NCBI RefSeq assembly: GCF_041821085.1
Contig: NZ_JBGUAZ010000001.1
Span: forward strand, 682,001-746,000
Direction: 5' to 3'
Source of the DNA: Natrinema sp. HArc-T2
GTDB taxonomy: Archaea; Halobacteriota; Halobacteria; Halobacteriales; Natrialbaceae
Length of the DNA stretch: 64,000 nt
The notes beneath the pieces are model-generated. The model was not told the origin of the DNA and did not search any database. It was given only the letters and a program-made list of their open reading frames with translations. This document shows, in pieces, positions 32,190 through 50,405 of this stretch (the stretch's first letter is position 1; each line of letters begins with the position of its first letter). The position numbers and the translations under genes were made by a program.

Positions 32190-32272
32190 TATAGTAGCCA
32201 CTGAACGTCAGTGCAACCTGATCGCACGACAGCTGTGCGATCAGTGTGTCACTCGTTTCAGTTGTTACTATA
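32190..32272. mobile_element. MITE-like hairpin element, family B, intact copy
   Basis: 83 bp with terminal inverted repeats TATAGTAGCCACTGAACG / CGTTTCAGTTGTTACTATA (about 15 of 18 paired) and an inner perfect 10-bp stem CTGATCGCAC / GTGCGATCAG around a 7-nt loop. The whole element can fold into one hairpin. It has no coding capacity. A degenerate half-copy is at 46081-46126. Confidence 0.65.
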
Positions 32273-42769: not shown

Positions 42770-43154
42770 GCCCTCGGCAACTCGAACCACCCTCTTGTGA
42801 CTTTTCCCGGGAATACCAGATGTGATACTGCCGGACGGCACGGGTCAGACACCGAGCAGACGCACGGCACAATCGCTGACGGCGAGGGGATATCGAGGCG
42901 TGAGTGGACAGTCATGAACAGCTAACGAGCCCCAATCTAGTAAGAAAACCGACACAGGTGAGTTCAGAATTATCTCGTATCTGAATACTTGTGACAGGGA
43001 GTCACGGAGCCTGTGTCATAGGGGTGTGCCAATCAGAGTATTGCCGGCTACTCAGGGTCTACGCACCGTACGTCACCTCGTCACTGGGTACGCCATGCCA
43101 CACAAAGAGAGAAATCCTCACGTTTATCTATCAGGCTGGTGGTGGTTTATGTGT
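42770..43154. promoter_or_regulatory. 385-bp divergent promoter region of the actin-like gene and pckA
   Basis: No gene supported here. The pckA side holds TTTATCTA (43123-43130), a TATA box 25-30 bp before the start. At 42951-43017 three perfect inverted repeats are nested: GACACAGG/CCTGTGTC enclosing TTCAGA/TCTGAA and GTGAC/GTCAC. On the minus strand the outer stem is followed by GGTTTTCTT. This may be a structured RNA or a complex operator. Confidence 0.55.
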
Positions 43155-44666
43155 ATGTCTGAAACCGGGACGGAGTCTCGTCCGCTGGTCCGGCAACTTC
43201 CCGATCCAGCGGCAGCGTCGAACGTCCGGTACAACCCGTCGCTTGAGGAGCTGCGTGAACTTGCCAAACCCGACGAGACGACGACCGAGTTCGGGTCGCC
43301 GTCGTACGTCAGCGAGTTTCGGTCGCGGAGTTCCGATCGGACGAAAAACGCCATCGACCACGAGTTCACCGACCACGATCAGGAACTGATCGACGACGCC
43401 GTCGATCTGGCTTCCGACGTCGAACTGGTCTGTGTCGACCGGCTGATGGGCCGCCATCCGGACGCGTCCTTCTGCTGTCGTCTGTTCGTTCCCGTCGAGC
43501 ACGCTCGGATCGCCTACGCGTGGGCGAACCTCTTCGAGCCCGCCGACGGGGCGGACCCCGATCTCTACACCGTCCAGCTGCCCGACTACGACGAGACTGC
43601 GATTCGCGTCCTGCCCGACACCGGCTTTACCGCCGTGCTGGGCAGCGACTACACCGGTGAGGCCAAGAAATCGTTCCTGCGGCTGTTCATGTATCGGATC
43701 AAACAGCAGGGCGGCCTCGGTCTCCACGCGGGCAGCAAGCGCGTCCGCGTCCGCAACGAAAACGACGAGCTCCAGACCGTCGGTCAGGTGTTCATGGGCC
43801 TGTCCGCGACCGGCAAGTCCACGCTGACCTCCCACGGCTGCTGGCTCGAGGACCCCGAAGACGCGTCCATGCTCCAGGACGACGTCTGTGGGCTGCTCTC
43901 GGACGGCTCCGTCGCCGGCAGCGAGGGACAGGGACTGTTCATCAAGACGATCGGCCTCGGCGAGGACGAACAGCCCGAACTCTACGAAGCTGCAACCGAC
44001 GAGTCGGCCATCCTCGAGAACGTCGCGGTCGACGACGACGGCACCGTCCACTTCGACGAGGACCGCTATACCTCGAACTCTCGGGCGATCATCCAGCGTG
44101 ACGAACTCGAGAGCGCCGACGAGGAGATCGACCTCGGCAGCATGGATCAGGTCTTCTTCATTACGCGCAACCCCCTGATGCCGCCGGTCGCCAAGCTCAA
44201 CGAAGAGCAGGCCGCCGTCGCATTCATGCTCGGCGAGTCGATCGAGACCAGTGCGGGCGATCCGTCGCGGGCCGGCGAGTCGATCCGCGTCGTCGGGACC
44301 AACCCCTTCATCATCGGCTCTGAAGGTGAAGAGGGCAACATCTTCCACGAACTGATCGACATTCTCGACGTCGACTGTTACGTGATCAACACGGGATATC
44401 TCGGCCAGAAGTCCCAGGACATCGGTGTCACCGAGTCCGTGACGATTCTCACCGAGACCGCTCGCGGCACCATCGAGTGGACCGACGACGAGGAGATGGG
44501 GCTGACGATCCCCGAAACCGTACCTGGCATCGACATCGAGGAGTTCTACGTGCCGGACCACGTCGAGGACTACGACGAGGCGCTTTCGGACCTCCGCGCC
44601 GAACGGCGGGAGTATCTCGAGCAGTTCGAGCAACTCCGCGACGAGATCAAAGACGCCGTGTACTGA
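43155..44666 (+). CDS. pckA: Phosphoenolpyruvate carboxykinase (ATP)
   Basis: A 503-aa ATP-type PEPCK. The kinase P-loop is GLSATGKSTLTSHG (~218-231). Other motifs: RIKQQGGLGLHAGSKRVRVR, DDVCGLLSDGSV and VFFITRNPLMPPVAKLNEEQ. It forms PEP from oxaloacetate for gluconeogenesis, which fits growth on acetate via the methylaspartate cycle. Start: MSETGTESRP at 43155 or ATG 43149. A TATA box 25-30 bp upstream implies a leaderless transcript. Confidence 0.93.
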   Translation: MSETGTESRPLVRQLPDPAAASNVRYNPSLEELRELAKPDETTTEFGSPSYVSEFRSRSSDRTKNAIDHEFTDHDQELIDDAVDLASDVELVCVDRLMGRHPDASFCCRLFVPVEHARIAYAWANLFEPADGADPDLYTVQLPDYDETAIRVLPDTGFTAVLGSDYTGEAKKSFLRLFMYRIKQQGGLGLHAGSKRVRVRNENDELQTVGQVFMGLSATGKSTLTSHGCWLEDPEDASMLQDDVCGLLSDGSVAGSEGQGLFIKTIGLGEDEQPELYEAATDESAILENVAVDDDGTVHFDEDRYTSNSRAIIQRDELESADEEIDLGSMDQVFFITRNPLMPPVAKLNEEQAAVAFMLGESIETSAGDPSRAGESIRVVGTNPFIIGSEGEEGNIFHELIDILDVDCYVINTGYLGQKSQDIGVTESVTILTETARGTIEWTDDEEMGLTIPETVPGIDIEEFYVPDHVEDYDEALSDLRAERREYLEQFEQLRDEIKDAVY

Positions 44667-44831
44667 ACTGCCGGACGCTCGGTTGTCCGACCGGAGACGC
44701 GTACGTGATGTCTTCTGGCGTGCGCGATCGCATGAGCTCTGATTCCTGCTACAATTACCAAGCGCGAGCGACGGGGCTTCGCTTGCCGCACACGAATACT
44801 GTTATATGTGTCGAGTTCCCACGGGTGGGTA

Positions 44832-45023
44832 ATGAGCGCACAGGTACGAACACCGACCGCGCGAGTCTGTGAAGTATGCGACCGCGCCGAAGTCTGGGAC
44901 GAAGAGCTCGAAGCGTGGCAACTTGCCCGCGAAGACGGCGAGAAACAGGTTGGTAATCCACACTGCCTCCACGAGTGGGACATCAACGGCACGTTCAATC
45001 CGGTCGACGAATCCGATAGCTAA
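44832..45023 (+). CDS. HEWDINGTFNP micro-protein, 63 aa, with Cys pair
   Basis: A 63-aa protein: MSAQVRTPTARVCEVCDRAE... ends with CLHEWDINGTFNPVDE. A CxxC pair (~13-16) and a later Cys/His (CLH, ~46) could bind zinc. It is a small haloarchaeal protein of unknown function. ATG 44832 is ~30 bp after CTGTTATATG, a TATA box, so probably leaderless. Confidence 0.78.
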   Translation: MSAQVRTPTARVCEVCDRAEVWDEELEAWQLAREDGEKQVGNPHCLHEWDINGTFNPVDESDS

Positions 45024-45099
45024 CGATCGGGCCACGCGACGGTCGTCGCCCGCACGTCGTGGTAGTATCCTTTTTCCCGGCTCGAGCGTAGCCGCTGTT

Positions 45100-45402
45100 A
45101 TGCCAACGGTCTACATTACAGCCCCACTCGAGGCAGCCGACGAGCTCGCCGAAACGCTCGTCGCGGAGCGACTCGCCGCCTGCGTCAACCGGGTCGAGAC
45201 GACCTCGACGTACCGCTGAGAGGGTGAGGTCCACCACGATGACGAAGTGATCCTCTTCGTGAAGACGACCGACGACGTCTACGACGACCTCGTCGCATAC
45301 GTCGAAGAACAGCATCCCTACGACGTGCCCTGCATCGAGCGGTTCGACGAGGACGACGTCCTCGAGTCGTTCGCGACGTGGCGAGCCGACAGCGTCGAGT
45401 AG
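45100..45402 (+). pseudogene. cutA: cutA (divalent-cation tolerance), broken by an in-frame TGA
   Basis: Read through, this is a 100-aa CutA1-like protein: VYITAPLEAADELAETLVAE, ACVNRVETTSTYR, then EGEVHHDDEVILFVKTT, and VPCIERFDEDDVLESFA. Codon 40 (45217-45219) is TGA where CutA proteins usually have Trp (the ...YxW(K/E)G segment), so one base change TGG to TGA explains it. No good restart codon lies near. The remaining frame is clean to the final TAG, so the change is recent or a sequencing error. Confidence 0.82.
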
Positions 45403-45484
45403 CCGAGCGGGTACGACAGACGGTCACAGGCGATGATTGGCTGAATTAGCAACCCTTAAAACTCGCGCACGGGTTGTGACGGGT

Positions 45485-45967
45485 ATGGCTGGAACCATCG
45501 AAGTGCTCGTTCCGGGTGGCCAGGCCAACCCTGGCCCGCCGCTCGGTCCCGAGCTCGGACCGACCCCCGTCGACGTGCAGGCTGTCGTACAGGAGATCAA
45601 CGATCAGACCGAGGCGTTCGACGGGACCGAAGTCCCCGTCACCGTCGACTACGAGGACGACGGCTCCTTCGAGATCGACGTCGGTGTGCCACCGACGGCG
45701 GCGCTTGTCAAGGACGAAGCCGGCTTCGAAACCGGCAGCGGCGAGCCCCAAGAGGACTTCGTCGCGGACCTCTCCGTCGATCAAGTCAAGAAGATCGCCG
45801 AGCAGAAACACCCCGATCTGCTCGCGTACGACACGATCAACGCCGCGAAGGAAGTCGTCGGCACCTGTGCCTCGATGGGCGTCACCATCGAAGGCAACGA
45901 CGCTCGCGAGTTCAAAGAGCGCGTCGACAGCGGTGAGTACGACGACGTGCTTGCAGCCGACGCATAA
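45485..45967 (+). CDS. rpl11: Ribosomal protein uL11
   Basis: A 160-aa archaeal uL11: MAGTIEVLVPGGQANPGPPL, PTAALVKDEAGFETGSG, and the C-terminal rRNA-binding part EVVGTCASMGVTIEG. It binds the GTPase-associated region of 23S rRNA. In this genome it is separated from uL1 by a minus-strand gene and 1.0 kb, as is known for some haloarchaea. Promoter box CCCTTAAAAC lies ~25 bp upstream of ATG 45485. Confidence 0.97.
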   Translation: MAGTIEVLVPGGQANPGPPLGPELGPTPVDVQAVVQEINDQTEAFDGTEVPVTVDYEDDGSFEIDVGVPPTAALVKDEAGFETGSGEPQEDFVADLSVDQVKKIAEQKHPDLLAYDTINAAKEVVGTCASMGVTIEGNDAREFKERVDSGEYDDVLAADA

Positions 45968-49061: not shown

Positions 49062-49166
49062 CTTGCGCTCGCGGATGAGTGGCGACGCCGCAGTGGAGCG
49101 GCGCCGACGGCTCACGCTCCACGGCGAGCCGAGAGTATATGAGTGAAGGCGCGGCCAGAGCCGCCA

Positions 49167-50405
49167 ATGGCTGCCCCAGTGGAGGTCGTCGTTGAGCCGG
49201 CGCTGACGCTGCAGTTGCTCGCGTGGGTCCTCGCCGGCTCGCTGTGTGGGACCTGTAGCGGGCTCGTCCCGGGACTACACGCCAACAACTTCGCACTCGT
49301 GCTGGCAGGAATCGCTCCGTCAGTCCCCGGCCCGCCGCTGTTCGTCGGCTGTGCGATGCTCGCCGCCGGCGTCGTCCACACCTTCCTGAACGCCGTCCCG
49401 GCGATGGCGCTCGGCGTTCCCGACGCGGAGATGGCCGTCACCGCGTTGCCGGGTCACCGACTGGTCCTCGAGGGACGTGGCCCCGAAGCGATCAGACTCT
49501 CCGCACTCGGGAGCGTCCTCGCCGTCCTCGCTGCGGTCCCGCTTGCTGTCCCTGTGACTCGCGCCGTGACCGTCGTCTACCCGACGCTGCGGGCCCATCT
49601 ATCGGTGCTCCTCGCAACGATCGTGGTCGCGTTACTCGCCTCGGAGCCGACGTGGCGAAGCCGCCTGGGTGGCCTGCTCTCGTTCGGGCTGGCCACCGGA
49701 CTCGGCGCACTCACCCTGGATCTCTCGCCGGCAGCGCCGCTCGAGGTGGGCGGCACCCTCGCGCCGCTGTTTGCCGGCCTCTTCGGGGCACCGGTGTTGA
49801 TCGACGCGGTTCGCGGGAGCGGGATCCCCCGGCAGGACGGCCTCGAGATCACAATGTCGCGCGGACTCCTCGGGGGGACGGCGGTCGCCGGCACGCTCGC
49901 GGGTGCTGCAGTCGGCTACCTGCCCGGTATCACGGCTGCGATCGCCGCCGTCGCGGTGCTGGTCGTCGTCCCGGCGGAAGCCAGTGACCGGGGGTACATC
50001 GTCGCGACCAGCGGCGTCGACACGGCCAACACGGTTTTCGCGCTTTTCGCGCTGGTCGCCATCGGCCAGCCCCGAACCGGCGTGCTGGTCGCCGTCGACA
50101 GTCTGGGCGTGCCACTCGAGATACCGATCCTGCTTGCTGCCGTCTTGCTCGCGGGACTCGTCGGCTTCGCGCTCATCCTGGTCGTCGGGGACGCCTATCT
50201 CGAGTTCGTCGGGCGGCTCCCCTACTGGCAGGTGTCGGCTGCCGTTCTCGCAGTGCTTCTCGTGCTCTCGTTCCTGTTTACCGGCGTGGTCGGCATTGCG
50301 ATCTTTCTCGTCGCGACCGCGATCGGGCTGGTTCCGGTTCGGCTGCGAGCTCGGCGCGTCCATCTGATGGGTGTCTTGATCGGGCCGCTGATGCTTGGGA
50401 TCTGA
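49167..50405 (+). CDS. TctA-like transporter permease
   Basis: A 412-aa protein with about 10-12 hydrophobic helices of the TctA/DUF112-like family. The opening GTCSGLVPGLHANNFALVLA carries the family's glycine-rich loop, and a second matching loop VGYLPGITAAIAAVAVLVV occurs near residue 250. In bacteria TctA works with TctB and TctC for tricarboxylates; neither partner is present here, and substrate is unknown. I use ATG 49167 over GTG 49143. Confidence 0.75.
   Translation: MAAPVEVVVEPALTLQLLAWVLAGSLCGTCSGLVPGLHANNFALVLAGIAPSVPGPPLFVGCAMLAAGVVHTFLNAVPAMALGVPDAEMAVTALPGHRLVLEGRGPEAIRLSALGSVLAVLAAVPLAVPVTRAVTVVYPTLRAHLSVLLATIVVALLASEPTWRSRLGGLLSFGLATGLGALTLDLSPAAPLEVGGTLAPLFAGLFGAPVLIDAVRGSGIPRQDGLEITMSRGLLGGTAVAGTLAGAAVGYLPGITAAIAAVAVLVVVPAEASDRGYIVATSGVDTANTVFALFALVAIGQPRTGVLVAVDSLGVPLEIPILLAAVLLAGLVGFALILVVGDAYLEFVGRLPYWQVSAAVLAVLLVLSFLFTGVVGIAIFLVATAIGLVPVRLRARRVHLMGVLIGPLMLGI

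Follow-up and report, generated by a model that had tools for sequence, protein, structure and literature searches.

The cutA frame and its internal stop

Within a 64,000-nucleotide stretch of the Natrinema sp. HArc-T2 genome (contig NZ_JBGUAZ010000001.1, positions 682,001 to 746,000; hereafter the window), a cutA gene of the CutA1 family sits between a HEWD-domain gene and genes that we take, from their sequence, to encode ribosomal proteins L11, L1, L10 and L12. The cutA frame is interrupted at codon 40 by a TGA that is in frame both with the ATG at 45100 and with the terminator TAG at 45400-45402. The frame and its parts are as follows.

45100..45402, + strand: probable pseudogene frame of cutA, CutA1 family; 100 codons then TAG, with a single internal stop; PF03091 103.4 bits when read through
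45217..45219, + strand: premature TGA at codon 40, where all 106 other distinct CutA sequences in the comparison carry TGG
45100..45216, + strand: 39-codon N-terminal remnant, the product if the TGA terminates; PF03091 33.4 bits
45220..45399, + strand: 60-codon C-terminal remnant with three private changes; PF03091 51.8 bits

The initial annotation, made from the letters of the window, had described an in-frame TGA replacing a conserved family tryptophan in a cutA frame otherwise intact on both sides, and each of these points is borne out. With the stop read as tryptophan, the frame matches the Pfam CutA1 model (PF03091, cut-off 22.4 bits) over profile positions 3-98 of 99, and the 39 codons before the stop and the 60 codons after it each exceed that cut-off alone. 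Among 107 distinct CutA DNA matches, 106 have TGG at codon 40 and only the window departs from it; among those from loci taken as haloarchaeal the figure is 87 of 88. This comparison drew on 120 of 121 loci, as a deletion in the remaining one (L028) leaves no single alignment across the codon. The read-through frame scores 91.1 bits against the NCBIfam CutA equivalog model, below its cut-off of 120. The uninterrupted reading frame of a CutA1 gene is broken here by the TGA, and in the YxW aromatic motif of the CutA1 subunit interface Y38 is kept and W40 is the stop. A protein search and the Pfam model returned one match only in the 3.73-Mb, 32-contig genome, with no second CutA copy. Judged from these alignments, one in-frame stop in a well-aligned, conserved frame without insertions or deletions (indels) is a real feature of the assembled sequence. 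No second strain of the species turned up among the genomes compared.

Comparison with characterized CutA1 proteins indicates what codon 40 would contribute. The best match among solved structures is Protein Data Bank (PDB) entry 1uku, which we take to be CutA1 of Pyrococcus horikoshii; the read-through frame aligns with it over residues 3-97, and 1uku has tryptophan at the aligned position where the window frame has its stop. A study of Shewanella SIB1 CutA1 assigns Tyr45 and Trp47 to an aromatic cluster, conserved in the family, where the subunits of the trimer meet, and states, as unpublished data, that variants of a related CutA1 in conserved residues of this cluster largely lose stability (PMC3004244). 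From the YxW spacing, Y38 and W40 of the window would correspond to Tyr45 and Trp47 of SIB1. The same study describes CutA as a trimer of wide distribution with functions that are not well clarified (PMC3004244).

We consider it probable that a recent nonsense mutation at this conserved tryptophan codon inactivated the sole cutA of this Natrinema species, and that cutA is dispensable in the genus. Termination at the TGA would yield a 39-residue fragment, truncated ahead of both the tryptophan of the aromatic cluster that locks the trimer and the last 60 residues, so that neither a functional protein nor a trimer would be expected. The mutation would persist because cutA is dispensable in the genus, where lesions of other kinds have disrupted it on at least three further occasions. 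On sequence grounds, the window cutA is probably a young pseudogene, ordinary in kind; we infer that its function has been lost, that selection on the gene is weak and that the stop is present in the DNA of the cell.

Broken and intact cutA copies in Natrinema and its family

HEWD and L11 genes flank a 455-541-base stretch containing cutA in all 29 Natrinema genomes compared, and cutA is intact in 24 of these and broken in 5, the window genome (G000 in our labels) included. Close relatives of the window genome carry intact orthologues at the same locus, as aligned for G022 and G009. The four other broken copies each have a lesion of another kind. G003 lacks 19 bases over codons ~34-40 (alignment with G005), and in G021 a tandem duplication near codon 75 adds 14 bases (alignment with G024). 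G026 and G027 have in common an inverted-repeat element of ~80 bases just ahead of the YxW motif, which brings in an in-frame TGA, and G026 carries further indels besides. These copies resemble that of the window in being the same gene, with the same neighbours, non-functional by sequence; they differ in that a deletion, a duplication or an inserted element takes the place of the substitution.

In a tree of six neighbouring genes, support is 100 for each of three pairs: the sisters G026 and G027, G003 with the intact G005, and G021 with the intact G024. The window genome groups with the intact G022 and G007-G009, with support of 100 for the five and 60 for the pair of G000 and G022. The placement of the broken copies among intact relatives therefore points to four separate inactivation events. 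This recurrent loss of cutA in the genus is a feature that was not noticed from the window sequence alone.

The region of the YxW motif, codons ~34-40, holds three of the four independent lesions (the window stop, the G003 deletion and the G026/G027 insertion), a clustering that may be due to chance.

By itself, a single stop codon would carry little weight beyond annotation. The window copy and the four other broken copies together suggest that CutA is dispensable in the genus, and comparison of broken with intact species could show what replaces it. Our literature search found no paper on cutA pseudogenes in haloarchaea and none on archaeal CutA1 of unknown function. A passage on Haloquadratum walsbyi gives 337 and 314 pseudogenes in two strains (PMC3119063); as described there, these are former protein-coding genes that have been interrupted, as the window cutA appears to be. 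What sets the latter apart is that it has one lesion, which seems young, and that the gene is a named one with wide conservation.

To place the genus in its family, 125 family genomes, 29 of them from the genus, were searched, and a CutA match was found in 118. Of the 96 genomes outside the genus, 89 carry a cutA match free of interruption and 7, in three genera, have no match. A CutA1 match is present in 6 of 14 control genomes, Haloferax volcanii not being among the six. Given these 7 matchless family genomes and H. volcanii, haloarchaea can live without CutA, and losses of the gene may also have occurred in other genera of the family. With the window genome, which prompted the search, left out of the tests, interrupted copies occur in 4 of 28 genomes of the genus versus 0 of 89 elsewhere in the family (Fisher p 0.0028), or in 3 of 27 versus 0 of 89 when the sister pair G026/G027 is counted once (p 0.012). 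In view of the seven genomes without a match, the genus is thus distinguished by losses caught with their remains still readable.

As a control at the locus itself, the same detector of broken genes was applied to cutA and its neighbours in 28 genomes. It flagged cutA in 3 of 28, 4 of the 237 gene-genome cases for non-ribosomal neighbours (frame shifts in two, partial alignments in two) and none of the 112 for ribosomal neighbours; the difference between cutA and the non-ribosomal neighbours has a Fisher p of 0.028. This control was run on trimmed gene cores, after removal of 11 cases cut by region ends and of those lacking a match at E 1e-8, and the detector missed the G027 cutA, which is broken by eye in the alignment. 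Most control genes exceed cutA in length, so that breaks are harder to find in cutA.

Sequence divergence bears on the age of the window stop. The window copy has three private changes, L53F, A54V and R67Y, all of them after the stop and at positions that do not vary among the 24 intact copies of the genus; they may be taken as a weak sign of lost constraint. In 22 of 24 comparisons, nonsynonymous divergence (pN) is greater downstream of the stop than upstream, a figure that has no matching control from the intact copies and carries no weight here.

Taken with the counts above, four independent inactivations among 29 species versus no interrupted copy among 89 genomes elsewhere raise the possibility that cutA is under relaxed selection in Natrinema, a suggestion that we hold to be rather less likely than not. 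If it is true, some change in the genus would have made the conserved CutA unnecessary, and these species would provide a natural knock-out series for CutA function. Several results weigh against the recent loss of a dispensable cutA proposed above. When matchless genomes are counted as losses, the genus no longer stands out (4 of 28 versus 7 of 96, p 0.21; with the sister pair counted once, 3 of 27 versus 7 of 96, p 0.38). The recurrence in cutA was noticed, and the comparison with its neighbours made, after the fact. Besides the stop, the window copy has 3 private changes versus 0-2 in each intact copy, which is a small number, and its mean pN of 0.128 lies inside the range of the 24 intact copies (0.097-0.134), so that the stop is either young or a base-call error, two cases that would look alike.

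Decoding of the TGA and rival explanations

The genome gives no indication of anything but the ordinary genetic code. Of 15 listed frames in the neighbourhood of cutA, that of cutA among them, 5 end in TGA. A UCA anticodon is absent from the 43 tRNAs (of 45 tRNA matches) read by ARAGORN, a list that is incomplete and does not include tRNA-Trp; the two matches that were left unread (L223 and L229) have, by eye, the anticodons TTG and CCG, not TCA. A tRNA-Trp candidate, with a 5' exon bearing a CCA anticodon, was located at G000:C3:480185-480205 (L230) using a loose pattern, the exact pattern having matched nothing. Recoding of TGA as tryptophan was considered and rejected, with no UCA anticodon read, a CCA anticodon in the tRNA-Trp candidate and TGA ending neighbouring frames. 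The L230 candidate is a probable intron-containing tRNA-Trp gene, and it is presumably because of the intron that ARAGORN did not call it.

The initial annotation had left a nonsense mutation, a sequencing error and readthrough side by side. The four broken relatives and the absence of any recoding machinery among our search results favour the first of these and disfavour readthrough, and an error is unlikely. In the case of a sequencing or assembly error, the cell's cutA would be intact and the 32-contig draft would hold a wrong base call; the lesion is indeed a single substitution, the gene carries no indel, and conservation over the remainder of the frame is close to that of intact copies. 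However, consensus assemblies rarely carry substitution errors, and beyond the stop the window copy has its three private changes at positions constant in the 24 intact copies, each of which has 0-2 such changes. Moreover, the four other broken copies carry indels or insertions that are impossible as single wrong base calls, which gives a higher prior for a real loss in the window.

Explanations in which the TGA is genuine and a CutA protein is still made fare worse. Functional readthrough, in which a near-cognate tRNA-Trp or a special context would decode the TGA as tryptophan and some full-length CutA would be produced, is improbable. The frame past the TGA does stay open to its own TAG, and the TGA stands in place of tryptophan, the residue that near-cognate decoding of TGA would insert, but no other compared CutA has TGA at codon 40, the anticodons and TGA-terminated frames described above offer it nothing, and the cutA lesions in other species of the genus are not curable by readthrough. 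Selenocysteine at codon 40, for which the in-frame TGA itself is the one point in favour, is extremely improbable: the family residue there is tryptophan rather than cysteine, and neither component of the pathway was found above its cut-off in the genome. The best tRNA-Sec score was 38.3 of the 47 bits needed, on a tRNA-Arg gene (5 of 14 control genomes pass the same search), and the best SelB score was 176.7 of 242.25 bits with a model that may cover archaeal SelB poorly (2 of 14 control genomes pass). The 3' stretch at 45402-45485 folds no better than its shuffles (z 0.35). We regard as equally remote a split gene, in which the 39 residues and a further 51 residues from an in-frame GTG (codon 50, 45247) would be made separately and then assemble; that GTG exists, yet a restart there drops codons 41-49, conserved family residues among them, and the stop at codon 40 is found in no other compared CutA.

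Genomic setting and the inserted element

Both genes next to the window cutA are intact by sequence.

44808..45023, + strand: HEWD-domain protein gene, upstream neighbour, intact; PF20576 107.8 bits, flagged broken in 0 of 28 relatives
45070..45092, + strand: upstream stretch with a T-rich box then CTCGAGCGTAGC, mostly common to intact relatives (alignment with G022 and G009)
45437..45967, + strand: ribosomal protein L11 frame, downstream neighbour, intact; the listed open reading frame may begin upstream of the true start

The upstream stretch presumably represents a retained cutA promoter region.

The element inserted in the cutA of G026 and G027 has inverted ends of 17 bases, starting TATAGTAGC in G027. 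Copies were placed as follows.

L029 1613-1694, equal to G026:C16:13718-13799: copy in cutA, by alignment
G027:C2:2223097-2223178: copy in cutA, by alignment
32190-32260 of the window: copy at 78%, by sequence match

A literature search on miniature inverted-repeat transposable elements (MITEs) in Natrinema gave nothing relevant by title. In its sequence the element looks like a miniature inverted-repeat element, and it has matches in 28 of 29 genomes of the genus, with at least 60 in one genome and at least 25 in the window genome.

Two other genes of the region are frameshifted in relatives: in G022 (L187) the TctA-family transporter gene homologous to window positions 49143-50405, and in G023 (L193) the homologue of window positions 43026-44666, presumably a PEP-carboxykinase-like gene.
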